A DNA stretch of 40,023 nucleotides from a virus, in the IMG/VR virus record IMGVR_UViG_3300028837_001063, positions 1 through 40,023 of that record. The stretch is one strand, 5' to 3'. Position numbers and translations under genes: made by a program. The first letter of the stretch is position 1, and each line of letters opens with the position of its first letter. Shown here one piece after another: positions 3,901-40,023 of the stretch. The notes beneath the pieces are model-generated. The model was not told the origin of the DNA. It worked only from the letters and a program-made list of their open reading frames with translations, and made no database searches.

Positions 3901-6900
3901 CATTCTGATTCCGCGAGACCGCTTTGTGTACCAGCCGGGGAATTTCTTCCGATGGGTAGCAACGCCTCGGATCGGGACACCAAACGCTCTGCTGAGATAT
4001 TTGACAATCTCTCGATTAGAGACGGCTTTCGTTTTGACAGGCGGCGCCTCTCGCTTCAGTGTGATCTTCCGTGGCTTTCTGGGTCCCGGCATACCGTATT
4101 CTTCTTCAGCTTCCGGATAGTCGCTTTCAGGCCGGTCACGGTGAGCATTATTGTACTCCCTGGCTGTGTCCGGATCGTTGTCGTCACTCTTAATGGCGTT
4201 ACCTTTATTGCGGAGATAGACAAGGACATCGGGCAGGTGCTCGGCGTCGAAGTCGGCACGCATGGCGTTTCGCCAGGTCTCGAAGTCACCTATAAGAGAA
4301 ACAAGGCCGGTATCGTTGTAATATTTCATGCCCCGTGCCTTGGACTTCGGTATTTCCATATAGCATCTTGTCGATGATACCTTGAATATTCTGGCCTCAC
4401 CCACTTTCAGGTGACGCTGATCAATAGCTCCGTCCATCAGGTATGCTGCAGCCGCCTCCGGTATCATATTGACAGAAGTGGGCAAATCCTGAGAAGGGCT
4501 GTAACCCTTGGGCAGCAGCAATCCCTGTCTGATAGTCCCGTCAGACATTGTGTAGTTGATAACCTTGGGCCGAACCGTTTTTTGACGTTTCTCACTGTCA
4601 CCTACAATAATACCCATTGCAGCGATAATATTACCGTTGGCGATGTATCGTTCCTCTCGCTGTTCGGCAGGAATATTATAATGACGCTCGACATTTCCGT
4701 AATAAGACTTCATGCCTACCCATTGAGAAAGAGATAAAGTCACTGTTTTGGCAGGATGTGGGACCGCTACTCTCAAATGAATGTTGCTCGGAGCTGCCGG
4801 ATTGACGTTGAACTTCTTCTTATCAAAGGTATCCATAATCTCCAAAAGAATCAGCGGATTACCTTCCAAATCCATACGACCACCGCCAAGAGCCAGATGG
4901 CGCATATCTCTATCTGCCCTTGAATAGGCGTCAACGGAAGATTGTTTTACTTTTTCCTTTCCTTGTTGATCTACATATTTTTCCCAGGCGGCATCGAGCT
5001 TTTTTCTCATTGCCTGCATATAAGCTGATGGTGTCTCCTGGCCTGCCTTCTTGACGACATCGTCAACTTCTTTCTTCATTTCATCTGTTGTATATGGCCT
5101 GCCTGCCATCTTGATAGACATCTTGTCTATAGTGGCGACTTCCTGAAAGACGTTGCCAGGCTCACCTACAAAGATAACCTGCGAACTGACGATCTCGGCC
5201 TTGTAGTCCTTTTCTATACTGATTAGCTCGTTCTGGTCCGTCTTATCAAGGTATTCGATAAGTCGATTGAATTCAGGCTCAATCCACTCGTAGAATTCCT
5301 CCTGTTCATCTGTTGAAAGCAAAGCTAAACGACCAGTAAATTTCTTTGCTATTTTATCATTATGCCATGGACCTTGATAAGTACCAGTTCCCATTGATTT
5401 CTGGTAATTAGATATATCTACACCAAGTCCGGCTTTTCTAAGAATATCCTGATTTTCCAAAATGTACTGTGCTGTCAGATAATCACCGTAAAGATTCAGG
5501 ATATCGGGTATTTGCTTTTGCTGATACACACCTTTTGTCTTGGCCGATGTATTGGCGTTCAGTGATCGCATCTTCTTTTCCAGAACGGCTGCCGGCCTTA
5601 TCTCAGAAGGAAGGGAAGTCATTAATATCTTGTATTCCGGCTTTACTACCTGACCCTTTCGATTGACACGACCGAGCATCTGCACGAACTTGTTGATATC
5701 GGCGTGAGGCTGAGCTACAATCATCTGACGCTTCTGCTGGTTCTTGAACTTCTCCGAGGCGTGGATACTCATTCCTTCGGCTGCAGCCACATTACCAATC
5801 AGGACCTGAATATCGCCGTTGTTGTATTGATATGCAATAGAAGTCTTGTCTCGGTCCGCAACAGAGCGAGATTCCAAAGTATATTCGTTTGTGCCGGTTT
5901 TTTTCAATATCTTATCTCGGCCTGTAATCTCGCCTACTTTGTAACCTTCGGCTTCCAGTTTGCCGATAATTTCATCAATAGGCGAGCCTGGCAGGTCAAT
6001 AATCATATCTCTTATATGTTCTTCTATGCGATGGTATGCTTCCTGAAGGTCCAGTGAAAGTTCAGAGACAGAAACTACGATAACTTCATCATTGCCGTAG
6101 GCATCGGTCTCTCGATATTTTAAGACATTTTTCAACAAATTTGACAAGACGGCACGATAATCAAAACCTTCCACCTTATCGCCATCATTCAGGCCATAAT
6201 CTTCTATATATCTTTTCAAGAAGGAACCCATCGTGTTTTCAACACCGATAAACGGACGCTTTCCCTCTTTCAAGGCTCTCAAGGCCATTGCCACCGTCTC
6301 GTCAATCTTCAGTGCCAGCAGCATCTGCTTGATTGCATTGTGAGCAACTGCGGCGAAGTTGGTATGCCCGATGGTTGTCCCTACACTTTTAGTCCTCTTG
6401 CGTATGGCTTTCAGTCGTTTCTTTTCAGGTTCAATCTGTTCGGCACTGAACATATTGTCAAAGACGACAATATCTCTAAGAACTTTCGTCACCTTATCGG
6501 CTCGCTCCGCGTCTCTTTCTTTATGCTGTGCGTCAATCGTAGTCTCGTAATTAACGCCGGTAAAATCCAGCTCCGTTCGAATGTAGGCGTTCGCTCTTGC
6601 CAGGGCCGCGGCAATCACTTCCTGATAAGGCTCGCCGCCCATTGTCACGGCATCCATCATCTTATCAACATCGCCGTCAAAGGCGTCAAGCAAACCCGTG
6701 CGTGCATAGAGCATCATCGTCTTGGGATTCTTCGCATAAGTGGCCGACATGAAGACAACGCCGCTTGAATGAGGTATGATGGTATCCCTGAAAAATTCGC
6801 CCGTATTACTCTCGCCGGCAGCGGTATGAGATTCATCCATAACGACTATCTGCTGATAAGCCAGTTCTGCAAGCTGTGCCCTCTGCTGTCGGCCTTCGGC

Positions 6901-9900
6901 ATTGATTTGAGAATATGTGGAAAATACTATATTATAATCACCTGTTTTAAGTGCTTTTCGAATTGCAGCCGTAGCATTTGGCCTGCCACCATGTTTCTGG
7001 AATACTATATTGTTGTGCTGATCCTTGATATCGATATCCGCATTAATCATTAAAGGCTTTATCTGGTCCCTCTTTATGCCGATATCTATCATGTCCCTGT
7101 AAAAGTCAGTGAATAGGTCTTTCTTTGCAGTGAAGAATACGGGCTTATTTCCCCTGAGTATTTCACGTCTGGCAATAGCTCGCCAGACGATACCTGCAGC
7201 GCATCTTCCTTTGCCTACTCCTGTCTGGTGTCCGATGATAAATCCTTTGCCTTTGTCCAAACTGTCGAAGGCCAGGGCAATCGTATCAATCTGAGTTGCC
7301 GAAAGATGTTCCCACATCTGCTCGTTGGATTCGTACTGGAGTTGTTCACGAACATAGTCGTCAATATCGCCGACTTCGTTTTCAAGTCTTTCCAGTCCTT
7401 CTTTGACGTGCGGTTCGAGATAGGTAGGAATGTTTTCGTTCTCGGCTGGTGCCTTGGAGAAAGGTTGGTATGGTATTTGAAGTTTGCCTTTGCCTACAGC
7501 AGTTCCCACCACTCCCACAGGTTTACGCTTCTCAGCTCTTGTAACTTCTGGGCGGCGTTCAGCTTCCGGTACTCTGGGTCTTTCCGGGCCTCTTTCAGGA
7601 GTCGGTTTCTTTGTTTCGGGTTTTTGCTCCTCATGTAATCGCTCGCCTGGTTTACGAGATGGTTCTGGGCGAACTGGTCGCTGTTCACCAGGAACTCCAC
7701 CAGCTCTTGGCCCGGGTCTTCCTCCAGCAGGCTCTCGCTCACCAGGAAGTTTACCAGGCCGGCCCGGGACCTCGGGTCTTTCGCCAGTCGGTTCAGGCGG
7801 CTTCTTAGCAGGTTTTCGTACTGGCCCCAGTTCTTCGGCAGGCTTTTCTTCGCCTCTACCCCCAGTAATCTCAGGGCCTGGCGGCTTCTTTCTGGCGGCG
7901 GCAGGTACAACATGGATTTTACTCCTTATCGTTTTCTTGGGCTTTTTACCCTTTACTTTTACGTCTTTCGTCTGGGCAATGTTCGAAAGTGCCTTGATTG
8001 CATCGGCAAAGTTGTCGAAACTCTTGCCTTCTTCGGGCATCCCGTATTCTTCCGGCTTTTCTTTTTCAATCGCACGAACATTGAAGGTTCCATCTTCTAA
8101 CTGAACTATCTCGCCGACAGGCCGGTTATTGCTGTCCAATACCTGCCATCTTCCCTGCTGCTCTTTAATCGACCAGCCTTCCGGCAGTTCTATCTCCGGA
8201 AGTTGAGCCTCCCGGATATCCTTCATTATATTATACACCTCTTCCCAGGAATTTGCACGAACTTTCGCAATTCTCGGCGGTGTTCTCTCCGATTTCTGCC
8301 GGCCATTGATTACTATTATCCTGACCGGCCAGGCCGCTCCCTGACGCTTGTAAAGGTCTCCGGATACCTCGAAATCGCCGACTACGTTGTAATTACCATA
8401 GACAAAATTCCCGAATACCCAATAAGGAGTCGAATAAGGCCCTTTTATCTTCGGTGCTGAGATAATCATTACCGCCCGGCCATCATCGGCCATGGCATTT
8501 AGATTCTGAGCTGCTATAATATGCTCTATTCTCGATAGTTTATACTTGTCGATAATGGTATCTTTATACTTGCCGAACGGTGGATTCATAATAACGACAT
8601 CGTAGTTCTTTTCATCGGTAGGCTTCGTGGCGTCCTTGGCCCGGACTTTTTTGAATCCCTGAGCAGCGAGTAAATCGGAACGAGTAGGATCTATCTCGTT
8701 TACTGTGACATTTTTCGGATCGGCGCCGATAGTCAGCATCCCGGTACCCGCAGTCGGTTCGAAGACAGTGGTATTTTCATCAATGCCGGCCAACAGAGAA
8801 GTTATATATGCCAGAGGTACAGGTGTTGAATATGCCTGCCTTGCAATCGTCTTGCCCGTGCGCGAGACAAGGACCGGCTGGTTTTCGTACAGCCGCCGCA
8901 AGTTGCCGTAAATCACTTCCTCGGATTGTCCTTTTGCTCTGCCTTCTCTTATAATGTCCCTGGCAAACTTGACTATAGTGGCCTCTACAGCCTCCTGAAC
9001 TTTCTTGTGCGAGTATTTCTTTTCAGGTTTAAGATCAGAAGTATTAACACCGTAAAGATTAGCAACGATATTTTTGATATGAGTATTAGTAAATGGCTCA
9101 ACTTTTTCTCCCGTCTTTAATATTGAAAGCTCTTTTTCCAATGCCCTTGACAAGCCGGCAACGTTGATATTGTCGATTGTGCCGATATCTTTTTTGGGCA
9201 CAAGTTTTTCGATTACCTGCTCAGTCTTGGATACTGGCTTAGTGATATATATAGCCCTTACATGGTCTTCACCAACTTTTTCAATTAAACCGACATACAA
9301 AAGATCATCGTATATATCTTTTGCTTTTCCTGGAGCACGTTCATAATAAAAGACCGCTCTTTCCTGTCCAGGGGTTGGTTGTGTTCCGAGCATGGATTTG
9401 AATTTATCAATCGCATCCTGACTCAATTCCGTAATTGCTCTAAGCCTTTCAACATATTGACCATCTGTTAATTTATCTTCTGTTGCTTTGTGCTGAATTG
9501 TTGTAACGACAGGAGCACTAAGTTTTTTCATTACTTGATTTTCAAGTTCAGAGACTAATTTTTGTATTTCTTCCGGCTCTGGATATTTGAAGTCCTTTAA
9601 GTTCCAATGTGCTCCACCATATCCTGAAACAGTGATTCTTACATTTCCTTCCGAATCGGTTATAACATGCTGAACTTTACCGGGACCATGATTTTTTAAT
9701 CCTGATGTTGGTGTAGGAACTACAAGTTCACCGATAATATCACTTTTGTACTTTGATCTTGCTACTTTCTGTTGAAGTGTTTCCTCTGCCTGCTTTGTGG
9801 TCGGCTTAGTAACAGGTGCATCGTATTTTTTGTCACGAATCAGATCAATCGTATCAACTATGTGAGTTTTTCCGAGTTCGAGATCAGCAATAACTCCTGT

Positions 9901-12003
9901 ATCAACAATCCATTTTATTTTGGCCTGGTGAGTTTCAGGATAGACTTCAACAATTCTCAGGCCGCGATTTACTTGTCCAGGTAACTTCCATCCAACACCT
10001 TGGCCCGGCTGCCACTTGGCGACATTTTCTGCTATTTGCTTTTGTATGCGATTTATAATTATTTCATCATTGGCTGTCTTAAATCTCTTGCCTTGATATT
10101 CTTTAAGTACCTTCTTTCTCTCTGCAAGCCATTCAGCTTCAGTCCATTTTTTCTCAGCAGGTTTTTCGGCGGGTTCTTCAAGTTCGGGAATATCTTCCAG
10201 CCGCTGTGGCTGAGGTTTGAATCCGAGTTTCAGCATCAAGTCACTCAGTTCATCAATTCGAGTTTTTATATCTTCGCTTGCCCGGTCCCAGGCAAACTGT
10301 TCTGGCCTTCCTTCTTCCGGACGTTCTCCTAAAACCTGCGTTCTTTCATTGAGTGCATCGAATTCATTCCTGATCTGAGGCCATTGCTGTGTCAGTTTAT
10401 CTGTCAGCAATTCGTCCGCTTCTAATCCTTCGTATTCCGGAAAACGCTTAATAATTTCCTTGTAGGTTGTATCCTTGACTTCTTCGCCCATCCCGGGCAG
10501 GGCGCCTGTTGCTATTTCTTCCGGTGTCGGCGCGATAGCAGGTGGTACCTTCGGCACTTTCGGCGGTGTTGCAGGTGGCGTTACTTTCGGTGGTGTCACT
10601 TGCGGTTTTGTTGGTTCTTTAATCAGCGGTGCTTTCGGCGGTCTCGCAGTTCTAATGATTGGCGCCCGACCTTTGGGCATTACTCCTTTTGGTGGAATAA
10701 CTTCCTGTTTAAGATAACCTGCTTTATCCATCCAATCCAGAATATCTTTACCTACTTGTATTTTTCTCGGATTTCCAGATTTTATCCATTTTTGAGCCTT
10801 ATCAATCCAGTTATTGAATTTTTCTCTTGTTGGTGCAAAGGCATCATCGTGCATAATTCTTCGATGTGCATTTTGAATGGCACGATCCACATTGCGCATA
10901 TTCGCAGCGGTTACATCTTCGAGATATCTCAATTGCTTTCGATATTCATGGCGTTTTATACTATTAATTGCCTCTGCCTGTTCAGGTGTAATCCCTGGGA
11001 TTTGACGTGTTTTTTTCATATCAGCATTAAATGCCGCTTTTAATCGAGCCAATTCGGAAGTATAAGCCTTTTGGACATTTCTTTTGGCCGTTCTTTCATA
11101 ATTATCCAAAAGATATCTTTGTTTTGCGAAATTCCATGTATTGAACACTACAGGAATCATCGCTGAGATTAGTATATCTTCACTATCACCACCCAGAGCA
11201 GCAGTTGATCCTGCAAATGTTCCAGATTCTAATGCAGTTTTAATCGCTTTTCCTTTTAAGCTGGATGTAGGGATTCTTCCAATTTGACCTAATGTCGCTC
11301 TCATGGCAGCACCCTGACCTGGAATCCCGCCAGTTAATTGATTATGAACTTCCCATATTACAGGTTCTGGTGTTCCTGCTGGCAACACCTTTCTCGTTAA
11401 GGCAAGTTGCGAAATAAAGGCTGTAATACCAGCGCCAACATCTACAATCTTTTCAGGAACATCTTCTGCTGGCTGGACCTTAAATCTTGGAACTTTTTCA
11501 TAAGCGGCTAAATCTATAGACCTTCTCGTTGCTAATTTACGTGCTTCTGCAGGACTACCCTTAAATCCTGATTTCTCTAATTCTTCATAGGCTTTTTGTA
11601 AATATTTTCTAACATTAGGTGGCTGCTCTCCACCTGTCGGCGCTAAAAATGATAATATTCCAGTACCTACATCAGAAAAAGCATTGATAATTTTCTTGCC
11701 GAATCGTCCTTTGAGTTCATCAACTTTTCGATCAATATTATAAATATCATATCCAATCTCACCGACTTTTTGCTTAAAAGGCTTCTCGGTTTTTTCTTCG
11801 ATAATTTTTAATGGCTTTTCAAGTTTTTCAGTTTCAGGAACAATCCCATGCAGCCAGTCCTCGGCGAATCTGCCCACATCTTCCATACGGAACTTCGCCG
11901 GCTTTTTCATAACAGGTTCTTCTGGAATATCGGAAAGCCGGATCGGTTTCGGCTTTGAAATCTTTGAAGGTGTTTCAGGTATATCGGATAATCTTATTGC
12001 CAT
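946..12003 (-). CDS. Giant polyvalent virion protein: adenine methyltransferase, strawberry-notch helicase, zincin, LPD38-like region
   Basis: This 3685-residue protein has several separate enzyme modules. Residues 1-420 hold repeated RLSDIPE motifs, a hydrophobic stretch near 185-205 and helices. A Pro/Lys/Thr linker (about 445-495) leads to an SH3-like stretch. Residues about 1040-1280 are an N6-adenine methyltransferase with FEPTAGTGML (about 1081) and NPPFG (about 1137). A Pro/Arg/Gly linker (about 1360-1510) precedes a strawberry-notch-type SF2 helicase with GHQTGVGKGR (about 1591), MDESH (1722), MSAT (1749) and QMLGRVNRKGQ (about 2111). HEVGHH near 2709 with a downstream EGYAEF marks a zincin. 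The last 700 residues are helical with a hydrophobic segment near 3381 and resemble large polyvalent-protein domain LPD38. Such proteins are known from phages and plasmids and are thought to enter the cell with DNA and block restriction (DarB-like). It follows two ejection-type genes. Individual domains are firm; the antirestriction role is inferred. Confidence 0.9.
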   Translation of the reverse strand: MAIRLSDIPETPSKISKPKPIRLSDIPEEPVMKKPAKFRMEDVGRFAEDWLHGIVPETEKLEKPLKIIEEKTEKPFKQKVGEIGYDIYNIDRKVDELKGRFGKKIINAFSDVGTGILSFLAPTGGEQPPNVRKYLQKAYEELEKSGFKGSPAEARKLATRRSIDLAAYEKVPRFKVQPAEDVPEKIVDVGAGITAFISQLALTRKVLPAGTPEPVIWEVHNQLTGGIPGQGAAMRATLGQIGRIPTSSLKGKAIKTALESGTFAGSTAALGGDSEDILISAMIPVVFNTWNFAKQRYLLDNYERTAKRNVQKAYTSELARLKAAFNADMKKTRQIPGITPEQAEAINSIKRHEYRKQLRYLEDVTAANMRNVDRAIQNAHRRIMHDDAFAPTREKFNNWIDKAQKWIKSGNPRKIQVGKDILDWMDKAGYLKQEVIPPKGVMPKGRAPIIRTARPPKAPLIKEPTKPQVTPPKVTPPATPPKVPKVPPAIAPTPEEIATGALPGMGEEVKDTTYKEIIKRFPEYEGLEADELLTDKLTQQWPQIRNEFDALNERTQVLGERPEEGRPEQFAWDRASEDIKTRIDELSDLMLKLGFKPQPQRLEDIPELEEPAEKPAEKKWTEAEWLAERKKVLKEYQGKRFKTANDEIIINRIQKQIAENVAKWQPGQGVGWKLPGQVNRGLRIVEVYPETHQAKIKWIVDTGVIADLELGKTHIVDTIDLIRDKKYDAPVTKPTTKQAEETLQQKVARSKYKSDIIGELVVPTPTSGLKNHGPGKVQHVITDSEGNVRITVSGYGGAHWNLKDFKYPEPEEIQKLVSELENQVMKKLSAPVVTTIQHKATEDKLTDGQYVERLRAITELSQDAIDKFKSMLGTQPTPGQERAVFYYERAPGKAKDIYDDLLYVGLIEKVGEDHVRAIYITKPVSKTEQVIEKLVPKKDIGTIDNINVAGLSRALEKELSILKTGEKVEPFTNTHIKNIVANLYGVNTSDLKPEKKYSHKKVQEAVEATIVKFARDIIREGRAKGQSEEVIYGNLRRLYENQPVLVSRTGKTIARQAYSTPVPLAYITSLLAGIDENTTVFEPTAGTGMLTIGADPKNVTVNEIDPTRSDLLAAQGFKKVRAKDATKPTDEKNYDVVIMNPPFGKYKDTIIDKYKLSRIEHIIAAQNLNAMADDGRAVMIISAPKIKGPYSTPYWVFGNFVYGNYNVVGDFEVSGDLYKRQGAAWPVRIIVINGRQKSERTPPRIAKVRANSWEEVYNIMKDIREAQLPEIELPEGWSIKEQQGRWQVLDSNNRPVGEIVQLEDGTFNVRAIEKEKPEEYGMPEEGKSFDNFADAIKALSNIAQTKDVKVKGKKPKKTIRSKIHVVPAAARKKPPGPEITGGRGEEKPAEELGPVRKPAKKPPEPTGERPEVPGRPGKLPGEREPAGGRPGPRAGGVPGEQRPVRPEPSRKPGERLHEEQKPETKKPTPERGPERPRVPEAERRPEVTRAEKRKPVGVVGTAVGKGKLQIPYQPFSKAPAENENIPTYLEPHVKEGLERLENEVGDIDDYVREQLQYESNEQMWEHLSATQIDTIALAFDSLDKGKGFIIGHQTGVGKGRCAAGIVWRAIARREILRGNKPVFFTAKKDLFTDFYRDMIDIGIKRDQIKPLMINADIDIKDQHNNIVFQKHGGRPNATAAIRKALKTGDYNIVFSTYSQINAEGRQQRAQLAELAYQQIVVMDESHTAAGESNTGEFFRDTIIPHSSGVVFMSATYAKNPKTMMLYARTGLLDAFDGDVDKMMDAVTMGGEPYQEVIAAALARANAYIRTELDFTGVNYETTIDAQHKERDAERADKVTKVLRDIVVFDNMFSAEQIEPEKKRLKAIRKRTKSVGTTIGHTNFAAVAHNAIKQMLLALKIDETVAMALRALKEGKRPFIGVENTMGSFLKRYIEDYGLNDGDKVEGFDYRAVLSNLLKNVLKYRETDAYGNDEVIVVSVSELSLDLQEAYHRIEEHIRDMIIDLPGSPIDEIIGKLEAEGYKVGEITGRDKILKKTGTNEYTLESRSVADRDKTSIAYQYNNGDIQVLIGNVAAAEGMSIHASEKFKNQQKRQMIVAQPHADINKFVQMLGRVNRKGQVVKPEYKILMTSLPSEIRPAAVLEKKMRSLNANTSAKTKGVYQQKQIPDILNLYGDYLTAQYILENQDILRKAGLGVDISNYQKSMGTGTYQGPWHNDKIAKKFTGRLALLSTDEQEEFYEWIEPEFNRLIEYLDKTDQNELISIEKDYKAEIVSSQVIFVGEPGNVFQEVATIDKMSIKMAGRPYTTDEMKKEVDDVVKKAGQETPSAYMQAMRKKLDAAWEKYVDQQGKEKVKQSSVDAYSRADRDMRHLALGGGRMDLEGNPLILLEIMDTFDKKKFNVNPAAPSNIHLRVAVPHPAKTVTLSLSQWVGMKSYYGNVERHYNIPAEQREERYIANGNIIAAMGIIVGDSEKRQKTVRPKVINYTMSDGTIRQGLLLPKGYSPSQDLPTSVNMIPEAAAAYLMDGAIDQRHLKVGEARIFKVSSTRCYMEIPKSKARGMKYYNDTGLVSLIGDFETWRNAMRADFDAEHLPDVLVYLRNKGNAIKSDDNDPDTAREYNNAHRDRPESDYPEAEEEYGMPGPRKPRKITLKREAPPVKTKAVSNREIVKYLSRAFGVPIRGVATHRKKFPGWYTKRSRGIRMKNVNSLRVACHEVGHHIDIYFNNEWSKTQSHAWYGMGAELVRLGKACYGKKRPKGGYKAEGYAEFVFGWLTGAIDLKKEAPQVLKFFEKNYLRDNPEISDILHTARDMIENWKEQGAEIRFDASIGQKLKPEKGVAERFSLWWQLGLADISAPIQHALQENIPSRSKMFGSNDPGFLYEMLTQTEGARATAFVMRNTVDIWCNVTGKSLEECIKPVAKRIKEWTRYVVAARALNLEAREINSGFDPEDALYIFKKYDSPQWRKVADDVTEWNHRVLDYLVQAGALEQEAARRMRLLNPIYIPFMRSFAPGEKRRTPSGVGRRGLIKRGKGVYKIVGSGRGIEDPLDSMITQVRRMISIAHKSMIARAFAEIEAKYGGLAGMIERVPSPIKAMTFDAKQLQKQLIQLGIDIVPGDLDDAMFTVFANSPIYLGKEHIISVVVNGKRHWYQVAPELYRVLEDMDQFQLPKLLNLLMGKAARLGRLGATGLNASFGIANMIRDMLDTVPKARYARGPLPFFKGVAKDLSRTGFSHCLGFKTNEAARRFNDMGGKISGYIGQDRRSIHHLKGEMLQSDVLGKTITTIRHPVEALRAVIGVPESGLRIEEFDRAIKDWMKKNQPQGGEPPPDAIMYAFLLASDQTINYRRAGQYGRWLNSMIMFWNANAQDLSKVYRTLRYNPKQSILWGIAALTLPSLGIWWLNKDKKWYQSLPPWEKTNYTHIPIYKKNKKGKWEVDHILRLPVPFLMGHIFMAFPTYVMDTLYHQDPKKIKDLFGEVFNADIKPLFEWPQIIGPYLDVKMNKDWTGKPIIPKSLEGKLPEDQYQQYTTEFCKIIANQWNKIPGMKKISPIELEYLLNAYSGGIYRRVAREAELVTGKREKELVPSDWPLVGRFFIRDPYAPKQDIERFYTRLEELNRKYQSRKISPYEYTERRIYLKQNEVMSPMWKLLRKTKTVGQRKAIYKRMRIVLMLADNSSKRTRDLEKKLK

Positions 12004-25517: not shown

Positions 25518-26015
25518 CTACTTGTCTGCTTGAGGCGGTGCGTTTTTCAGAGCTTCGGCAATAGCTTTTCTCAATGCTTGAATAAGAGATGGCTTGTCCA
25601 TGTTGTCGTAACCTTCGATTGTTTTAGACTTCTTTGCCATTGCCTTGAGTTCCTTGGGCGTCAGTTTATTCAGGTCTTCTTCAGTTGGTACCAGATCGAC
25701 AGTTGTTTTAGGCTCGGTTTCCGTCCCTGTTTCCTCTTTTTTTGTTTCGGTGTCTGCAACAGTTTCCGGAGCTACCGGCTTTGGCATCAAGTCCGGCACT
25801 TGTGCCGGATGTATGGCCATCAGATGTTCCTTGAGCAGTTCCGGAGTCTGGCGAATCGCTCCGCAGAACCTGCAGGCGTAGCCTGTATTTTTGTGGACGG
25901 GAGGAACAACTTCCTCGTTAGTATTCATATCGAAATACTTTCCATCCTGACCGAAGTAAGTATTATCTCCGATAAAGGAAATGCCGTAAGATTTAGTTTT
26001 GTCTAACTTTCCCAT
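25518..26015 (-). CDS. C2H2 zinc-finger protein with SAP/HeH-like C-terminus
   Basis: I use the ATG at 26015 because AAAAGGAG precedes it at ideal spacing; longer starts in the same frame lack this. The 165-residue product has a beta-like N-terminus (KSYGISFIGDNTYFGQDGKY), a C2H2 finger with C48, C51, H64 and H69 in the spacing C-x2-C-x12-H-x4-H, a Thr/Glu/Pro-rich linker and a helical end LNKLTPKELKAMAKKSKTIE...KPSLIQALRKAI. The end resembles the SAP/HeH helix-extended-helix nucleic-acid-binding fold often found in head-tail joining regions. It overlaps the end of the broken GT9 reading frame by 23 bases. The 100 bp between it and the next gene contain no clear signal. DNA binding is inferred. 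Confidence 0.65.
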   Translation of the reverse strand: MGKLDKTKSYGISFIGDNTYFGQDGKYFDMNTNEEVVPPVHKNTGYACRFCGAIRQTPELLKEHLMAIHPAQVPDLMPKPVAPETVADTETKKEETGTETEPKTTVDLVPTEEDLNKLTPKELKAMAKKSKTIEGYDNMDKPSLIQALRKAIAEALKNAPPQADK

Positions 26016-26379
26016 TTTCAAACTCCTTTTTCTTTTTCCATTGTTTGTAGATTTTAAGAAAAGCCGCATAAACGGTATGCGGATTGATATTCTCCATGCA
26101 CTTTGCCGCAAGATTGTGCCTTCCCTTCGGGCAGCAGTCGGTATAGATAAGACGGTGGCAGGGATAACAGTCGCAGTCCTTGGCGTGCAGAGTGACGCAA
26201 TTTTTCCAGTTCTTACCGCAGTTGTTCCTGCTCGAATGCGATAGGAACATTATTTTCGGAGTATCGTAGCAGCTTGCAGCGACGAGAATCCCCGTCTGTG
26301 GGCCTATAACCAAGTCGGCATACTTTGTCATTATCATAGACTGCCGGACGTTCCATACTCCGGACTTGTTTATGGTACG
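25993..26379 (-). pseudogene. GT9 glycosyltransferase, C-terminal fragment in a shifted frame
   Basis: After the in-frame stop at 26380-26382 this frame reads INKSGVWNVRQS, MTKYADLVIGPQTGILVAA, PKIMFLSHSS, NCGKNWKNCVTL and a cysteine-rich CDCYPCHRLIYTDCCP. These are the C-terminal landmarks of the phage methyltransferase-GT9 (heptosyltransferase-like) family, where the GPxTG segment binds the nucleotide sugar. The N-terminal half of the same family ends a few codons upstream in another frame (26370-27281). About 80-100 family residues between EEFNWP and the INKSG region are missing. The fragment could still be translated from internal starts such as the ATG at 26337, but by itself it lacks the acceptor domain. 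A deletion with a one-base frame change explains both pieces. Confidence 0.7.
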
Positions 26380-27281
26380 TCAGCCGGCCAGTTGAATTCT
26401 TCAGAACTTTCAAGCTTTAGCAGTTTTCCCTCTATCGAACCGCTGAAGTTTATTACCTTCTCAAATGACTTGCCTATTTCTTCCCAGTAATTCGGCAAAT
26501 CACCGTTAGGAATAGCACCTGAGTCCTGAATCATAAATTCGTCAATGAAAGGATTCTCGCGCAGAACTTGTGCGGAGTAGTCGGTGCAGTTATGAACGAT
26601 ATAATAACCTTGTTTTTTCAATTCTCGAAATACCGGAGTCAGCCATATAGCGTCACCCAATGCTCCATAACGGATTGTCAGACATTCCTTCTTTGTTTTT
26701 TTCTTGCGGGGAAACGAGACAGCACCGTCTCCGTTCCTTTTGAACAGTAAATCGAGAGGCCTCTTGAGAAAGTCATATTTCTTTTTGACTACCAACTGCC
26801 AGCTAAATTCGTTGGATTCATTGTGCCTGCTGGCCGATATCTTTTTTGCGTTACCGAATGACTTGATTATCTGCCATACATCCTGCCAGTACATATCGTG
26901 TATGTGGTCAGGATTAGAGCCAATAGTGCCTATATGTGGATAATAATCCGGGTCCGGACCGTAGAGAATCAGATACCCGCCCGGCCTTATCAATCGCCAC
27001 CATTCGCGCAGTATCACTTCAGGAAGGTAAAAATCTTCCAGGCAGTGAGAAGAAAAAACGTAATCGAAATGATTGTCGGAGAACATTCGCAATGAGTTAG
27101 GATCAGTCATATCAAGGGCAATATTGACCGCCTTACCCTCGACATCGATGCCTATGGCATTAGGGACAATCTTCTCGTTGCCGCAACCCATATCTATTCC
27201 AAGTCCACGGCAGAATGTAACTACCCTTTGCCGGCACTTTCTTACTTCATTTTGTTCGTTTTCATTCGGCAGCCATGTCAT
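26370..27281 (-). CDS. Methyltransferase fused to the N-terminal half of a GT9 glycosyltransferase (truncated)
   Basis: The 303-residue product has a class I AdoMet methyltransferase at residues 1-170: GIDMGCGNEK (28-37), IGIDVEG, FDYVFSSHCLEDF and RLIRPGGYLILYGPD. After a basic linker (KRNGDGAVSFPRKKKTKK) the GT9 N-domain begins at LTIRYGALGDAIWLTPVF (201-218) and proceeds to FEKVINFSGSIEGKLLKLES, then stops at EEFNWPADVP. Intact members of this fusion continue with the nucleotide-binding half, which here is partly deleted and shifted (25993-26379). The methyltransferase probably still folds; the glycosyltransferase should not work alone. The ATG overlaps the stop of the zinc-ribbon methyltransferase (ATGA), so the two methyltransferases are coupled. 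Confidence 0.75.
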   Translation of the reverse strand: MTWLPNENEQNEVRKCRQRVVTFCRGLGIDMGCGNEKIVPNAIGIDVEGKAVNIALDMTDPNSLRMFSDNHFDYVFSSHCLEDFYLPEVILREWWRLIRPGGYLILYGPDPDYYPHIGTIGSNPDHIHDMYWQDVWQIIKSFGNAKKISASRHNESNEFSWQLVVKKKYDFLKRPLDLLFKRNGDGAVSFPRKKKTKKECLTIRYGALGDAIWLTPVFRELKKQGYYIVHNCTDYSAQVLRENPFIDEFMIQDSGAIPNGDLPNYWEEIGKSFEKVINFSGSIEGKLLKLESSEEFNWPADVP

Positions 27282-28460: not shown

Positions 28461-29423
28461 CTACTGACTCGTCACATGGATTATGTGGGGCGCCCAGCCT
28501 TTAGTAGCATCTACACTGTCGCCGGTATCGGTACCGCACCAGATAATCTTCCAGATCAGCAGGCCGTACCAGGCTATTGCCTTGTCACGGCCAAAGTCCT
28601 TGGCTGGGTCCCGTCTTACCTCCGGTGGAATAACAACAATCTCCTGGACTGCATCCGCCCCGAAAATTACCGCCTCACCATAAGAACCACCAAGTATATT
28701 TGACATCAAGTTCGTCTCTTCCACGAAACGGCAGCCGTATAGCTTGCCGGCCTCGTTGGTAAAGAGCTGCTCAGGCTTGGCGTAAAGATAGGCGTCTCGC
28801 CACTTCGAATCGTCCTTGACGCCACCAAGTGCATCGACAGAGCCGATACAGACGTAGTTTCCCTGGTTATCAAAAGGCTTGACGTTCCACTTGCGTAGCT
28901 GGTCGCAGATTTTCTTGACGTGGTAGTAGTTCAGGTTGCATGTGCTTGTTGCACTTGCCGTTCCTGATGTCGTCAGAGTACCGCTCGTAGTACCAATACA
29001 TACATACTTTGCAAGTGTATCCTTGAACTGCGCTCCGGCAGCACCATCGGTTACTTCAGCCTCGTCTGAAAGCAGGGTCTTGTGAGTGGCGTTATCAACA
29101 TCGAATTCTGCAAGTGTCTCCAGCTTTCCCGTATAAGGTACGCTGTTGCCATACTCGGTAACAATTGCCGTTCCACGACCGACAATAAAGTTGCTTCGAG
29201 GTATCGTGGAAGTCTCTACAAGAGTTCCACCGGCAGTTGCAAGCTTGGAAATCTTATCGAAGTAAACAGTATCGCCGGTGTTCTTGCCTTTTGAAGTTTT
29301 CAAACGGCAGAACTGTCGAAAACGCATCAAAGGCTCTGAATATAACCAGAGCTTCTTGTCAAGCTTAGGGCATCCAAAGTAACCACCGAGGGTATTATTT
29401 ACCCATACTTGTTCGCTTGCCAT
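28461..29423 (-). CDS. Major capsid protein, N4-gp56-like (HK97 fold)
   Basis: The 320-residue product follows the scaffold gene. Its sequence runs through LYSEPLMRFRQFCRLKTSKGKNTGDTVYFDKISKLATAGG, IVTEYGNSVPYTGKLETLAEFDV, YHVKKICDQLRKWNVKPF (spine-helix region), NYVCIGSVDALGGVKDDSKWRD and YGEAVIFGADAVQEIVVIPPE. This order (gap-filled beta strands, long helix, then a P-domain with the conserved KWRD and YGCRFVEETN stretches) is that of the N4 gp56 family. The subunits form the icosahedral head around the scaffold. Start choice is backed by GGGAGATTGAAAT. Length is in the short part of the family range. Confidence 0.85.
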   Translation of the reverse strand: MASEQVWVNNTLGGYFGCPKLDKKLWLYSEPLMRFRQFCRLKTSKGKNTGDTVYFDKISKLATAGGTLVETSTIPRSNFIVGRGTAIVTEYGNSVPYTGKLETLAEFDVDNATHKTLLSDEAEVTDGAAGAQFKDTLAKYVCIGTTSGTLTTSGTASATSTCNLNYYHVKKICDQLRKWNVKPFDNQGNYVCIGSVDALGGVKDDSKWRDAYLYAKPEQLFTNEAGKLYGCRFVEETNLMSNILGGSYGEAVIFGADAVQEIVVIPPEVRRDPAKDFGRDKAIAWYGLLIWKIIWCGTDTGDSVDATKGWAPHIIHVTSQ

Positions 29424-33162: not shown

Positions 33163-35133
33163 CTAAGCCCTAATAGTTTCCTTTGCCGGTGACATTCTTG
33201 CGTTCGGATTAACTCCAGCCGGCAGAGCCGGTCTTTGTTGTATGGCTTCACCTGCTGGTAGTTGCTGCTGTTGTTGCATTATCTGTTCTTCCTCGTCAGA
33301 ATCGTTGTACGCCTCGTCCAGATTCCAGATACTTAGCAAGCGCTCCCAGATTTCCCTGAGCTTCGTCCACTGTGCGAGGTTTGGATATTTCAAAGCAATA
33401 CTCAGAGCCTGAACAAGATATTCCACCTGCTGTTTCTGCAGCAAGAGCAGGCTCAGACCGCCAACGTTGAACTGATAACGCTCTACATGCTTATAATCGC
33501 TGATGAACTCCGCAAGCATCTCGTAGCTGTTGTAGAGAATCTTACTGATGGAGTTCATTTCAATCTTCCTGGCAATGACATCGAAGTAGCCGTGAGACTC
33601 GGAAGTCTTGATCTCAATTTCGCCCAGAGTCTTGGCCTGCTTGCCGGGCATTGCAGTCAAGAACTCTGTTATGGCGTTTCCTTCCTGAAGTTCTTTGATA
33701 ATTATTTCCAAAGTCTTGAAAACATCCGCTGAAATAGGATCAGTCTTAACAGGATTTACTGCGTTTCCATGCACCCTCGTAGCAATGGTCTTGCCTGGGA
33801 ATATACGCATCATAGTAGTCGGGTCTTGCAAATCGTAGGGATTGTACTCGAACATTTTATTGACAACGAAGTTCAGGTTATCAATTACCATATTGACAAT
33901 ATTGTTAAGCGTGTACTGGAGCTTGACCTGATTTGCTACCATGGAGACGCCGGCAACGCCCCGATGTGGATAGACAATAGGGATGGTGAACTCGTAGGGT
34001 ATCTTGCCGCTGCTGTATGGATTGTCGTGACTTCTAATAAGAAATTTTTCGTTCGCAATCATTAAAAGCTGGTTCTTCTTTTTCTCCCTGCTGTCCTCGG
34101 AAACAACGTCACCCCAAAACTGCAATATACCTACCTTCTTATTTACGTGGATATGCTCATCAAGCTCTTTGCGTTTGTTCTCCTGGGTATCAAGTTGCTG
34201 TTTGTTAAACTCTTCGCTAATTTTATTAATTTCATCAATATCATAAACAGCTTCCTGACCTTCTTTTTGGCATTGTTTGTTTGTATCTTCGGCGGTCTCA
34301 ATCAGATCGGCAAGCTCCATCTCGAAGTAATCTACAAGATATCGCGGTCTGTCATCGACAAAAGGTTTGAATTCCGGCGCTATGTACAAGTTGAAGATGT
34401 CCTTACTATCATACTTTAACCGTTTTTTTCCGGGTTCAAAACTACGTTTAGTGCATCCGAATCCCAACAGGCATGAAGGCTTTACAGTCTCTCCGTATGC
34501 TGCTGAGAAATTAGTTTTTTTGATGTGGGCCTTGAATCGTTCCTCGTCCTCCTGCAGCTCGTCACCGTAGTCCTCAAGTTCCTCTTCGAGTGATTCTATT
34601 TCTTCTTCAATGGCCTGTACCTTACTTTCTTCGGAACGGATGTTATCTTCAATGATTGAAAAAGCAAACTCTCTTGCAATATCATCCATATTGCTTTGTT
34701 CTAATTCTTGAATCTGCTGTTTCAAGTCCTCTCCACTTTTGACAAATTGTTTTCTCGCACGTTTTATTCTCTTTTTCGCATTTCGCAGCTTGCTCTTTAG
34801 CGGCAGAGAAAACTCATCGTCCAGCTCCATGGAGAAAAGCTTGCTCGTCTGCAGAATGGCTCTCTCGATGAGAAGGCTTGAACGCTCAATAGCCATGAAT
34901 ATTTTAGGAATGAACAGTTTCGACTGCCAGGCACCTTTCTTGCTGTAGTCCTGAACGTTCTGATAGCACTGCAAAAGTTCCTTCCATCCTTCTCGTAGAG
35001 TGGTTGTGGCTTGTTCGGCCTCCTTCTTGCACTTGATAACATAATCAATCAGATAAGTCTTGTCACTGAACTTGTCAATCTGCTGCTCGGACTCGCTCTT
35101 TTCCTTGGTTTTTTCTGTTTTTCGATTTGCCAT
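33163..35133 (-). CDS. Portal protein
   Basis: The 656-residue product starts by TAATG overlap after the RNase H-like gene. Residues 40-90 (REGWKELLQCYQN...LFIPKIFMAIERSSLLIERA) are the opening helices of large podovirus portals. A charged coiled coil at about 110-205 is inserted. Then come SCLLGFGCTKRSFEP, YIAPEFKPFVDDRPRYLVDY (clip/wing strands), IPYEFTIPIVYPHRGVAGVSM, QYTLNNIVNMVIDNLNFVVN (stem helix), TEFLTAMPGKQAKTLGEIEI and a Gln-rich C-terminus with a run of five Gln (about 635). The portal forms the dodecameric ring that is the DNA entry gate and tail attachment site. The length is near that of the P22-type group. Confidence 0.85.
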   Translation of the reverse strand: MANRKTEKTKEKSESEQQIDKFSDKTYLIDYVIKCKKEAEQATTTLREGWKELLQCYQNVQDYSKKGAWQSKLFIPKIFMAIERSSLLIERAILQTSKLFSMELDDEFSLPLKSKLRNAKKRIKRARKQFVKSGEDLKQQIQELEQSNMDDIAREFAFSIIEDNIRSEESKVQAIEEEIESLEEELEDYGDELQEDEERFKAHIKKTNFSAAYGETVKPSCLLGFGCTKRSFEPGKKRLKYDSKDIFNLYIAPEFKPFVDDRPRYLVDYFEMELADLIETAEDTNKQCQKEGQEAVYDIDEINKISEEFNKQQLDTQENKRKELDEHIHVNKKVGILQFWGDVVSEDSREKKKNQLLMIANEKFLIRSHDNPYSSGKIPYEFTIPIVYPHRGVAGVSMVANQVKLQYTLNNIVNMVIDNLNFVVNKMFEYNPYDLQDPTTMMRIFPGKTIATRVHGNAVNPVKTDPISADVFKTLEIIIKELQEGNAITEFLTAMPGKQAKTLGEIEIKTSESHGYFDVIARKIEMNSISKILYNSYEMLAEFISDYKHVERYQFNVGGLSLLLLQKQQVEYLVQALSIALKYPNLAQWTKLREIWERLLSIWNLDEAYNDSDEEEQIMQQQQQLPAGEAIQQRPALPAGVNPNARMSPAKETIRA

Positions 35134-35801: not shown

Positions 35802-35973
35802 TGAATCTTTTTCTAAATTCTGAATCCGTTCTTAATCTACTAATTCCTGTCATAATTTCTGATAAGTCACCATTATTACTCAAAAATATTTCGCCACACT
35901 TATCACATTCGTATAAATCCAATTTTGTTATATACTTTATGTTTCCACCGCAAGTACATTTTTCTGCACTCAT
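35779..35973 (-). CDS. Small zinc-ribbon protein
   Basis: I take the ATG at 35973, which overlaps the large terminase stop (ATGA); longer starts in this frame would lie inside the terminase. The 64-residue product has CTCGG and CDKCG, four cysteines in a treble-clef or ribbon, then a helix LSEIMTGISRLRTDSEFRKR. It overlaps the next gene by 23 bases. Short zinc ribbons next to terminases occur in phages; the function is not known. Confidence 0.6.
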   Translation of the reverse strand: MSAEKCTCGGNIKYITKLDLYECDKCGEIFLSNNGDLSEIMTGISRLRTDSEFRKRFNEQHQDI

Positions 35974-37283
35974 GCCGCCAGCTCTCCTTCCGTGAAGTAG
36001 AACTTGCCCTCGACACCGTAAATCGCATAGCGAAGGCAGTCGCACGTATGGTCGTTTACTGAAAGAGGCACTTCCTTCGGATCGTTACGCTCCGTTCCTT
36101 CCGGCCACTTGTACCCGGTGACTTCGTTTATCGTATTCTTGCAGTTTCGCATAATGAACAATCTCGGCCTTCCGTCACCCTGAACCTTAAGTGCAGTCTG
36201 GACCGCCTCGATTCCTGCGTGAACGTCTTTCTTTGCCGGCATGGTAGCCAGGCCCAGCTTTCTAAGCTCGGCTGCATCCTGAGAATCGTGGTCCGCCCAG
36301 GTACAACGGTATTTCTCGGTGCCGCTTATCTGCTTAATCCTCTCGACATGATAAGCCAGTAACTCCCTTGCCTGATAATGCTCTGCGTAAACATACCAGC
36401 GCCGATCCGGGTCACGTGCCATCCACAGGCAGGCGAAAGGATTGTTAAATCCGAAGTCTATTACACGGTACCTCGGCCATTCCTTTGGAATTTTGAATTG
36501 ATTGACCACGTGAATTGCACGATTGAATGTCTTGTAAACGGCACCGGCGAACGAAGCGAAGTAGCCCTTGATTCGAGTCTCCTGAATCTCTGCAGGCCAC
36601 TGACTGATAAGCAAATCTATCTCGGCATCGTCAATGTACCCGCCCCTGCTCTTGCGGTTATCGTTCAGGTCGGCGTAGAATACCTCATCGGTATCAGGAA
36701 GTGACTCAATCCTCTCTGCCAGCCAAGACTGTGGAATTATAGGTGTCATTGACTGTGCGGAGAATCCTTTCTTGTCCATTAGCCGTGCCTGTATCTCCTG
36801 CCATATACCCTCACTGTCGGACTTGCACTGCTCATCTCCATAGAAAGCATCAATGGCACGTCCCTCGAAAGCTTTACGTCCCTGCTCATAAGCCTTGAAC
36901 TCGATTCGATTGCCGTTAAGCAGTCTGATTTCTCTCGGGATTTCATCCTGCTTGTTGTGCCATGAGATTGGATATGAGATTTGATATGATGGTATGTACT
37001 CCTTGATTTTCTCTTTCCACAGCAGCTTGCCAACCAGCGGCCATGTATTCGCTGCGGCCCAGATTGTAGCTTCCTTCGGTGTCACTCTAAACGGATGAAT
37101 CCCCAGGGCGAACGAACACAGGTCATAGCCGATATTGCCCTCGGATTTGCCCGAACGATTGCCACCGCAAAGCCAGCGGTTCTTTGCTTGGCTTGCGTGA
37201 AACAATTCCATAGCCGGCAGAGGATCATACGTCAGTATCTTCGTGCCGAACTTCTGAATCTGTTGGTCCGGTACTATCTGCAT
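35970..37283 (-). CDS. terL: Terminase large subunit (TerL)
   Basis: The 437-residue product has the packaging ATPase at the N-terminus: Walker A GGNRSGKS (about 40-47), and Walker B AFYGDEQ with the catalytic D-E at about 150-151. The RNase H-like nuclease domain follows, with the first metal ligand in VIDFGFNNP (D276), a second acidic cluster CTWADHDSQDAAEL and a C-terminal DHTCDCLRY. Both domains look intact. I selected the ATG at 37283, giving a 59-base overlap with the small subunit; an ATG at 37337 with GAGGA eight bases upstream and a GTG at 37343 are alternatives. The enzyme cuts concatemers and pumps DNA into the head through the portal. Confidence 0.85.
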   Translation of the reverse strand: MQIVPDQQIQKFGTKILTYDPLPAMELFHASQAKNRWLCGGNRSGKSEGNIGYDLCSFALGIHPFRVTPKEATIWAAANTWPLVGKLLWKEKIKEYIPSYQISYPISWHNKQDEIPREIRLLNGNRIEFKAYEQGRKAFEGRAIDAFYGDEQCKSDSEGIWQEIQARLMDKKGFSAQSMTPIIPQSWLAERIESLPDTDEVFYADLNDNRKSRGGYIDDAEIDLLISQWPAEIQETRIKGYFASFAGAVYKTFNRAIHVVNQFKIPKEWPRYRVIDFGFNNPFACLWMARDPDRRWYVYAEHYQARELLAYHVERIKQISGTEKYRCTWADHDSQDAAELRKLGLATMPAKKDVHAGIEAVQTALKVQGDGRPRLFIMRNCKNTINEVTGYKWPEGTERNDPKEVPLSVNDHTCDCLRYAIYGVEGKFYFTEGELAA

Positions 37284-37725
37284 GGTCTGATTTGCCGTTA
37301 TGTTTATTAAAATTATTGCGCATAATTCTACGAACATTCTCACATTCCTCGGGTGTCGGCGGCTCCTGCTGATTGTCCATGACTACATGCTCAACAGCCT
37401 TGCCTTCCTCACGGTCAAAGAAGTGCTTGGCTAAATACTCGGAAGACTTGCCGGCTGCCATGTTCTTCGCAATTTCAATTGCAGATTTTTGAACGAGAGT
37501 TAGCTTTTCTTTTTCCAGCTCATCAATCTCCGCCTCGGTCATGTTCATATACGTACATACCCAGCGCCATAGAAAGCACCTTGCCTTCGGCTGACCCTTG
37601 GGATTCCCGCTCTGGCCAGGCTTGAACTGGTACTTTTTAGGCGGCAATCCATAACCTACCAGTTCTTCTTCATTTCCCTGTAATGCAGGGAATTGACTAT
37701 TTTCACATTCCTGTTCTTCACTCAT
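37225..37725 (-). CDS. Terminase small subunit-like protein (DUF5681 type)
   Basis: The 166-residue product carries KYQFKPGQSGNPKGQPK near residues 31-47, the signature of DUF5681 proteins that precede large terminases. A helical centre (LEKEKLTLVQKSAIEIAKNM) and FFDREEGKAVEH follow, where the FDRxxGK pattern is usual in small terminases. The C-terminus is acidic and disordered. Its frame overlaps the large subunit, as terminase pairs often do. The small subunit recognises the packaging start and loads the large subunit. Confidence 0.75.
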   Translation of the reverse strand: MSEEQECENSQFPALQGNEEELVGYGLPPKKYQFKPGQSGNPKGQPKARCFLWRWVCTYMNMTEAEIDELEKEKLTLVQKSAIEIAKNMAAGKSSEYLAKHFFDREEGKAVEHVVMDNQQEPPTPEECENVRRIMRNNFNKHNGKSDHADSTGPTDSEVRHEDTDV

Positions 37726-38121: not shown

Positions 38122-38838
38122 CTAAAAATTATAAACTAAGCTGATTCCGTACCAGGTAAGATTGTCATCCGGATTGACGGCATTATCGAACGTCATTTGA
38201 TGATAGACAGCCGGGCGGATTATGATCTTGTTCTCAAGCTCGATATCGAAGTGAGCACCTAAAAGAACGTGCGTAAAATCTTTTTTGATCTTAATACCAC
38301 CAGGCTCGAAGCCGTCATTGTAAGTCAGCTCTGCGAAAACATTCACTCCCTCGATCTGCTTCGAAGCCTTCAAGAGATGTAAGAAACCCGTCCCTTCTTT
38401 CGCTCCGGAGTTGAATGGCGTAATGTAAACCAGACTGTAATCGACATCGACCGGCAAGCCTAAATTTGGCACTTTCGTTTGGAACCAGAACTCGTGAAAG
38501 TCGGGCGAGTCCGCAGAGTGGCTGGAGGAGTCCGGGAAGTTGTAGTAATTATATCCGAACGTTCCGTACTCCGTTTCCTTCGTAAGAGACAAATCCAATC
38601 TCTTATCATTTTCCTGTGCTTCCTCAGATGGCCTGACACCGCCGACATCAAGACCGAAGCCGGCGAGATTGAGTTTGGTAAACGGAGAAAGTGCCGAACT
38701 CTCATCATACAGGGGAAAGCCACGAAATAGGACCTTTTCCTCGTATGTGATACCCGATTCCGTCTCCAGCTCCTGTGCCTGAACTGTGAATGCGGCAATC
38801 AGTATCACAATCAGCATTGTCAACATTTTATTAAACAT
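38122..38838 (-). CDS. Secreted beta-barrel, porin-like outer membrane protein
   Basis: The 238-residue product has a signal peptide: basic start (MFNK), hydrophobic core MLTMLIVILIAAF, then a VQA cleavage site near residue 21. The mature part alternates in strands with aromatic girdles (EKVLFRGFPLYDE, YGTFGYNYYNFPD, VNVFAELTYNDGF) and ends YGISLVYNF with a terminal Phe, the signal read by the BAM complex. The FRG..L.D start and strand order resemble TorF-type putative porins. It is flanked by AAGGAACAAACT and an AT-rich promoter. In a phage this could alter the host surface after infection, for example to exclude other phages, or be a captured host gene. That role is inferred. Confidence 0.75.
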   Translation of the reverse strand: MFNKMLTMLIVILIAAFTVQAQELETESGITYEEKVLFRGFPLYDESSALSPFTKLNLAGFGLDVGGVRPSEEAQENDKRLDLSLTKETEYGTFGYNYYNFPDSSSHSADSPDFHEFWFQTKVPNLGLPVDVDYSLVYITPFNSGAKEGTGFLHLLKASKQIEGVNVFAELTYNDGFEPGGIKIKKDFTHVLLGAHFDIELENKIIIRPAVYHQMTFDNAVNPDDNLTWYGISLVYNF

Positions 38839-38870
38839 AGTTTGTTCCTTTCATAATAAGAGTTATTAAT

Positions 38871-38897
38871 AATATATATACGTGTATATAAATACGG
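38871..38897 (-). promoter_or_regulatory. Candidate promoter upstream of the porin-like gene
   Basis: The minus strand reads CCGTATTTATATACACGT followed by ATATATATT. It shares CCGTATT, TATATA and GTATATATAT in the same order with the region at 38053-38085. It lies 33 bp before the ATG. It sits within a 191-bp gene-free stretch (38839-39029) that otherwise holds only a 13-bp palindrome. Confidence 0.45.
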
Positions 38898-38911
38898 ACG
38901 TTTAGTAGGCT

Positions 38912-38924
38912 GTTCTTGAAGAAC
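38912..38924. promoter_or_regulatory. 13-bp palindrome, possible operator
   Basis: GTTCTTGAAGAAC is a perfect inverted repeat with 6-bp arms around one base. It lies 15 bp upstream of the candidate promoter of the porin-like gene, a position suitable for a dimeric regulator. No protein that would bind it is seen in the window. Confidence 0.3.
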
Positions 38925-39029
38925 TGATATTAAAACTTTCTATTTTGCAAAAAGAGGTACTTTGGTATTAGTTGACTTGAGATCGTGGCTTGTAGGGTCT
39001 GTGGCGCATCGTAAATGTGGTATAAATGG

Positions 39030-39464
39030 CTATTCTTCGCTGTTTTTGTTATCTTCTGTCAAAAAGCTGAATTTCTCTTTCTCCATTTCCTGAATGTCTT
39101 CAAGGAAGTTTTGATAGACTCTTTCTATCTCCCTAAATTCTTTGTTTAGTTTACTTTGAAGCCTACTTGCATAATACTCGCTTCTCTTTCCGTGCCTCAA
39201 TAGTGCGATTATCTTCTCCGCTTCTCTGATTGTTATTAGTATATAATCAATGGGACATATATTATCCAGCCTCCTGATTTGCCTTCCGAGGTGACGGAGT
39301 TTTTTCTGGAATGAACTCTCAAAACTTTTCTCCGATTCTTGAAGTGACTCTGATATCCTGCGATACTTCGCCTCGCAGTTCTTCCACCCGAGATTGTATA
39401 TAGCCAGGTCCAGCTCTTTACGCTTCGGATGTTTTTTCCAGAATTTATTCAGTTTACTTGCCAT
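39030..39464 (-). CDS. Hypothetical coiled-coil protein
   Basis: I use the ATG at 39464 in place of a TTG one codon upstream. The 144-residue product is highly charged and helical (KAKYRRISESLQESEKSFES, LNKEFREIERVYQNFLEDIQ) with a predicted coiled coil over most of its length and an acidic end. It overlaps the radical SAM gene by 11 bases. No family is recognised. A 191-bp gap with a candidate promoter follows before the porin-like gene. Confidence 0.55.
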   Translation of the reverse strand: MASKLNKFWKKHPKRKELDLAIYNLGWKNCEAKYRRISESLQESEKSFESSFQKKLRHLGRQIRRLDNICPIDYILITIREAEKIIALLRHGKRSEYYASRLQSKLNKEFREIERVYQNFLEDIQEMEKEKFSFLTEDNKNSEE

Positions 39465-40023
39465 CAATCACTTCTCTTATCGAATCCTTCCACCTGATAT
39501 AAGGCTTTTCATTAAGTAACGAATAAATCTTTTTTACATACCAGTCTTCTCGAATCTTCAATAACGGCTTTACGTATTTTACAATCTGTTCTCCCGCGAC
39601 ATCTTTCATATCAACTCTGCGCTTGAAATCTCTTAGCTTGCCGATCCAGAAGCTGTCTGTAATATAATTATTACATACTTCGTATAAATGTTCAATCCAG
39701 CAATCGAGATAAGGCTCGCAGCTAACCGATGTTTGGAATCCGTTATTGTGTGCGTAGATAAGCGAATTGAGTCTGTCCTGGAAGCAAGGCGCATTAGGTT
39801 CCCAGAACTTGAGGACCTCATCGGAAGTAGATCCTATCGTGAATCGAAAGACAATCTGCTTCTTGTATTCTTCCAACAAATCGCACATAGCGGATATCAA
39901 AACTAATCTCGGCTTCGTGACTATAAGAACCTGGTTGCCGGCTTTAAGAAGTTTTTCAAGCACTTCTACACAATGTATGAAGTTGTTCTCGGTGATATCG
40001 TGCGTGGAAGGGAACATAACAAC
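39454..40023 (-). CDS. Radical SAM protein, C-terminal part (cut by right edge)
   Basis: The frame is open to the right end, reading VVMFPSTHDITENNFIHCVE, then LIVTKPRLVLISAMC, FRFTIGSTSDEVLKFWEPNA and FQTSVSCEPYLD. These strands belong to the TIM-barrel half of SplB/photolyase-like radical SAM proteins found in phages. The CxxxCxxC iron-sulphur motif, expected in the missing N-terminal part, cannot be checked. The C-terminus (RFTIG..VDMKDVAGEQI, DWYVKKIYSLL) is helical. The substrate is not known; relatives are linked to nucleic-acid repair or modification. A Met at 40017 is internal, not the start. Confidence 0.7.
   Translation of the reverse strand, partial: VVMFPSTHDITENNFIHCVEVLEKLLKAGNQVLIVTKPRLVLISAMCDLLEEYKKQIVFRFTIGSTSDEVLKFWEPNAPCFQDRLNSLIYAHNNGFQTSVSCEPYLDCWIEHLYEVCNNYITDSFWIGKLRDFKRRVDMKDVAGEQIVKYVKPLLKIREDWYVKKIYSLLNEKPYIRWKDSIREVIDGK

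Follow-up and report, generated by a model that had tools for sequence, protein, structure and literature searches.

The gene at positions 38122–38838 of the analyzed DNA is carried by a phage and very probably encodes an outer-membrane β-barrel (hereafter P0001) with a weak similarity to TorF porins. We assign a probability of about 0.55 to the reading that P0001 is an outer-membrane channel supplied by the phage and changing the permeability of its host, an estimate that applies to the whole statement, including export, a barrel of about 12 strands and the time of synthesis. The analyzed DNA (the window) is a linear IMG/VR record of 40,023 bases without end repeats.

Genomic context and coding evidence

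Almost all long genes of the window were located on the minus strand. In the direction of this strand, a radical-SAM-like gene truncated at the end of the contig was followed by a gene for a 145-aa protein, the P0001 gene, one or two very small genes, the DUF5681 gene and the gene of the large terminase subunit, and then by genes encoding the portal, an N4-gp56-type capsid protein, tail and structural proteins and a polyvalent protein of 3685 aa. The features considered were as follows:

39454–40023, minus: radical-SAM-like protein, C-terminal part, truncated by the contig end (the intact homologue L016:2750–3601 has CEHGCRYC)
39030–39467, minus: Lys/Glu-rich 145-aa gene upstream of P0001, no convincing family match
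38839–39029, minus: AT-rich intergenic stretch of 191 nt upstream of the P0001 gene, no convincing sigma-70 promoter
38846–38851, minus: ribosome-binding site AAAGGA, 7 nt 5' of the ATG, from the sequence
38122–38838, minus: gene for P0001, a predicted TorF-like outer-membrane β-barrel of 238 aa
38776–38838, minus: signal peptide MFNKMLTMLIVILIAAFTVQA, residues 1–21, likely cleaved after Ala21 (by inspection and a heuristic rather than a trained predictor)
38125–38154, minus: C-terminal outer-membrane (BAM) signature WYGISLVYNF, found in 1 of 1375 ORFs
37225–37725, minus: DUF5681 protein occupying the small-terminase position; first large gene downstream of P0001 (PF18932, E = 1.6e-7)
35970–37343, minus: terminase large subunit (phrog_5653, E = 1e-25; relatives 63–79% identical)
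33163–35133, minus: portal/head–tail connector protein (phrog_332, E = 2.8e-20; relatives)
28461–29423, minus: N4-gp56 family major capsid protein (TIGR04387, E = 1.6e-19, above the cut-off)

The coordinates given for the P0001 gene in the initial annotation were exact, the ORF beginning with ATG. Its codon log-likelihood, calculated with a model built from the other phage genes, was 0.116 per codon (0.05–0.26 in those genes), whereas all five alternative frames of the same segment had negative scores and contained 5–16 stops each. The GC content (0.46) and GC3 (0.55) were ordinary values for this phage, so neither codon usage nor GC gave a sign of recent foreign origin. The gene is flanked on the same strand by phage hallmark genes, and since the terminase, portal and capsid genes lie downstream of it on that strand, the possibility that the segment is host DNA retained on the contig was rejected and the phage context is secure. 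Thus, 38122–38838 is a real gene in a phage, as had been proposed, and both the hallmark genes and the phage-like codon usage bear this out.

An ORF encoding a DUF5681 protein was conserved adjacent to the terminase gene in 18 loci. Homologues of the radical-SAM-like protein were found in seven other viral contigs (42–62% identity), with more distant ones in archaeal bicaudaviruses. In the 3685-aa polyvalent protein (946–12003), an LPD38 domain and a Strawberry-notch-type helicase pair were recognized, together with a possible methyltransferase motif. The methyltransferase-domain protein encoded at 26370–27281 aligned with the first portion of a single, longer protein of the related phages L005 and L020, the rest of which matched a separate ORF (25993–26337); the gene of the window may be split or frameshifted.

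The suggestion that the P0001 gene has its own promoter found no support. Sigma-70-like matches in the region numbered 10, compared with 5.5 ± 2.4 in shuffled sequences, which is not a significant enrichment, and the nearest minus-strand match (38854–38825) overlapped the start codon. The 191-nt gap leaves room for a promoter of another type.

Evidence for an outer-membrane barrel

Both the signal peptide and the terminal Phe noted initially were present in P0001. The C-terminal pattern was F(−1), Y(−3), L(−5), I(−7) and Y(−9); among the 1375 ORFs with 90 or more aa from the collected loci, P0001 alone had this signature, and the OmpF protein of E. coli carries the same ending. The single-sequence AlphaFold model was uninformative (pLDDT = 39.4). 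The model guided by an alignment of 29 viral TorF proteins had 12 strands (pLDDT = 71.2, pTM = 0.64), in agreement with the ten to twelve expected from the initial annotation, although the alignment may itself impose the barrel. The best structural match of this model was KdgM (Z = 14.5, rmsd = 3.0, 159 residues aligned), the second was a designed 12-strand barrel (Z = 13.9), and the further ones, including VhGalP, FapF, Tsx, OmpG and NanC, were nearly all outer-membrane barrels; a Foldseek search with the P0001 model returned porins from rank 1 downward. Both the barrel of 12 strands and the resemblance to the TorF architecture are predictions of these models. An amphipathic-strand scan was discarded because E. 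coli OmpF went undetected by it as well, which makes its strand count uninformative for P0001.

According to the signal peptide, the BAM-type C-terminus and the alignment-guided model, P0001 is very probably an outer-membrane barrel, as annotated. If so, a diderm host follows; the further expectation that the protein would identify the host lineage did not hold, since no close cellular relative was found.

Similarity to TorF porins and other known barrels

P0001 had no sequence match in Pfam, NCBIfam, PHROG or PDB. It was below the cut-off of the TorF/Gcw_chp family (PF09694, TIGR02001), nothing in the window matched PF09694 even at E = 10, and P0001 matched none of the Pfam families of lambda Lom, Ail and OmpX at the same E-value. 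A reference set of 18 plasmid TorF porins was obtained in a tblastn search for which a consensus sequence of TorF served as the query; most of the plasmid matches to this consensus were annotated as TorF.

In profile–profile comparison (hhalign), P0001 scored 30.8 over 170 colinear columns with the first 12 TorF porins, for which 400 shuffles reached at most 23.3 and 428 other ORFs at most 21.5. For seven short marine viral TorFs, the score was 36.9 (27.1 for the mature part; maximum of 26.2 in 300 shuffles), with viral and plasmid TorFs combined it was 25.7 (maximum of 24.4 in 300 shuffles), and with 24 viral TorFs it was also 25.7, reached by none of 400 shuffles. The score thus lay above all shuffles with four profiles, but not with the set of 29 viral TorFs (24.1, reached by 1 of 400 shuffles) or with the 18-sequence profile A7 (20.9, reached by 6 of 600 shuffles, non-significant), in which real TorFs had leave-one-out scores of 120–276 versus about 21 for P0001. 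With two viral profiles, mature P0001 scored 14.5 and 17.0, and with the sets of 24 and 29 viral TorFs the mature part alone was not significant; some of the signal stems from the signal peptide. Residues R39-G40 and E116 were in register with columns that are invariant or nearly so across the 29 viral TorF proteins.

Such similarity is what would be expected of a very distant relative or of a convergent small barrel. The initial lead to TorF was therefore retained in part: the profile similarity is weak and profile-dependent but repeated, whereas P0001 falls below the PF09694 cut-off, for which reason we call it TorF-like rather than TorF, and the larger profile A7 weakened the similarity, so that membership in the family is not claimed.

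P0001 shares with TorF a signal peptide, a similar length, the terminal Phe, the weak colinear profile similarity, an RG motif after the first strand and a conserved Glu at the same place; it differs in the absence of the W and of the SQ after RG, which most members keep, and of any PF09694 match at E = 10. The 12-strand oligosaccharide channels KdgM, NanC and VhGalP are its closest structural counterparts (Z = 13–14.5 with the alignment-guided model), although their identity to P0001 is 4–13% and no sequence relation was shown. A few temperate phages of enterobacteria are known to encode outer-membrane proteins. The prophage porins NmpC and Lc and the lambda protein Lom are, as P0001 is predicted to be, phage-encoded outer-membrane barrels of diderm hosts; unlike P0001, NmpC and Lc are 16-strand trimeric porins and Lom is an 8-strand barrel of the Ail/Lom type, that is, they differ from it in family and size, and their genes are found in temperate phages, close to lysis or tail genes.

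TorF genes in other viral contigs

Two tblastn scans revealed TorF relatives in 93 distinct IMG/VR contigs (L081–L176, duplicates removed by contig name), for a minority of which hallmark genes were checked, so that some of the others may be host sequence. The PF09694 cut-off was exceeded by all 35 viral TorF records tested, and a terminase family match was found in six of these 35 (five above the cut-off). The contigs with a terminase match included a 200-kb, a 130-kb and several 34–39-kb records. Most of the TorF-carrying contigs are probably of freshwater or marine origin.

In two marine phages (G053 and G059), the TorF gene was located approximately 4 kb upstream of the terminase gene on the same strand, and in G053, a weak match to the N4-gp56-type capsid protein followed beyond the terminase, so that G053 shares its gene order with the window. 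The TorF gene of L132 (L132:2353–2985) was adjacent to a gene for a virion structural protein (phrog_3287, E = 1.8e-75), and the window also contains a member of this family. These porins of the family suspected for P0001 are likewise carried by phages, in G053 and G059 upstream of the terminase, but they are recognized members of PF09694 and P0001 is not. In the collection of isolate phages, TorF matches were found in Acinetobacter records only; four of these records look like pieces of a larger assembly, and the record AB1I1M-1 carries a TorF annotation.

The statement that such barrels are uncommon in phage genomes was too strong in view of the 93 viral contigs and of the many phage barrels present in viral structure libraries. 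No report of TorF in phages was found in the literature searched, which covers part of the literature only. The 93 contigs suggest that TorF-like channels are common in environmental phages; if this is true, outer-membrane remodeling during infection would be a wider strategy, with possible consequences for the uptake of nutrients, the entry of antibiotics and the competition between phages. With dozens of environmental viruses carrying well-recognized TorF genes, viruses may reshape the host cell surface more often than has been noticed.

Proposed role of P0001

In diderm bacteria, a signal peptide together with an outer-membrane C-terminus implies export by Sec and insertion by BAM, and these two features of P0001 suggest that it would be exported by the Sec system and inserted by the BAM machinery of the host. 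It would form a monomeric barrel of approximately 12 strands resembling the TorF/KdgM-type channels and would be produced close to the beginning of the operon for packaging and structural proteins. Monomeric barrels of this kind with 12 strands are usually narrow channels, and P0001 may alter how permeable the outer membrane is during infection, most likely by letting small solutes diffuse through. We infer this insertion into the host membrane, as well as its timing and the channel function. Several plasmid TorF genes were adjacent to transporter genes (Kdp potassium, ammonium, urea or betaine-type), a setting that suggests a part in solute uptake, and it is because of these neighbors that a role in permeability is preferred over surface exclusion.

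Surface exclusion, the strongest of the competing explanations, would mean that the P0001 barrel masks, displaces or replaces the receptor used by the same or other phages and thereby blocks reinfection of the infected or lysogenic cell. There is a precedent, since the prophage porins Lc (PA-2) and NmpC (DLP12, in which nmpC is annotated) replace OmpC-type receptors; in addition, the phage of the window has a ConA-like lectin/β-propeller tail protein that could serve in adsorption, and the P0001 gene occupies a variable slot, as expected of an arms-race gene. However, no integrase was noticed among the ORFs of the window, which belongs to an incomplete contig, and there is thus no indication of lysogeny, under which exclusion would be most advantageous; nor did the literature searched contain exclusion data for TorF-type proteins. 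We regard this explanation as possible but doubtful.

Less probable still is that P0001 is not an integral outer-membrane barrel but a component of the virion, a periplasmic protein or an exported protein of another type. The lack of a family match and the uninformative single-sequence model would fit such a protein, and in relatives of the phage, neighboring genes encode other exported proteins, some of them tail-spike-like with signal-like N-termini (L020:6414–8639), but the C-terminal outer-membrane signature, the colinear TorF-like similarity and the 12-strand alignment-guided model with its barrel matches argue for a barrel. A contribution to lysis, in which P0001 would weaken or permeabilize the outer membrane late in infection, is very unlikely, even though the gene adjoins late genes and no lysis gene was recognized among the scanned proteins of the window: the contig is incomplete on the side where other genes may lie, and P0001 is unlike spanins and disruptins, which are lipoproteins or small cationic proteins. 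No lytic activity is known for barrels of the P0001 type.

Relatives of the phage and of the gene

Homologues of P0001 were found neither by tblastn in phages and plasmids nor in pattern scans of viral and genome contigs, which required short exact peptides, so that distant relatives could have escaped them. The 16 phages with related portals and the loci with related terminases or radical-SAM-like proteins also contained none, so that the gene itself showed no conservation among the phages scanned. The search of genome contigs for portal relatives yielded no host genome. The portal relatives (41–55% identity) carried other, unrelated terminases, while some of the terminase relatives (63–79%) had unrelated portals, for example L028 (terminase 75% identical). 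The packaging module is thus mosaic, and its parts (35970–37343 versus 33163–35133) have been exchanged.

In L028, an ORF (L028:6774–7328) in the corresponding position, upstream of the gene for the small terminase, encoded a protein of 184 aa (P0002) with a signal peptide and the ending FGIRIPF, not detectably related to P0001. With Gly at −9, P0002 does not pass the strict test for the C-terminal signature and is therefore no more than a candidate outer-membrane protein. Tentatively, several unrelated phage lineages might have independently placed small TorF/KdgM-like channels upstream of their packaging genes, as a widespread means of remodeling the surface or permeability of infected cells, with P0001 as a diverged member and L028 with an unrelated candidate barrel in the same place; we consider this scenario rather unlikely on present evidence.

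The related phage L020 encodes, just upstream of its portal region (L020:5797–6432), an exported protein with a PEP-CTERM-like C-terminus, PESATIIILGLGILLCARKR, which scored below the TIGR02595 cut-off. This tail is only a hint at a planctomycete-like host.
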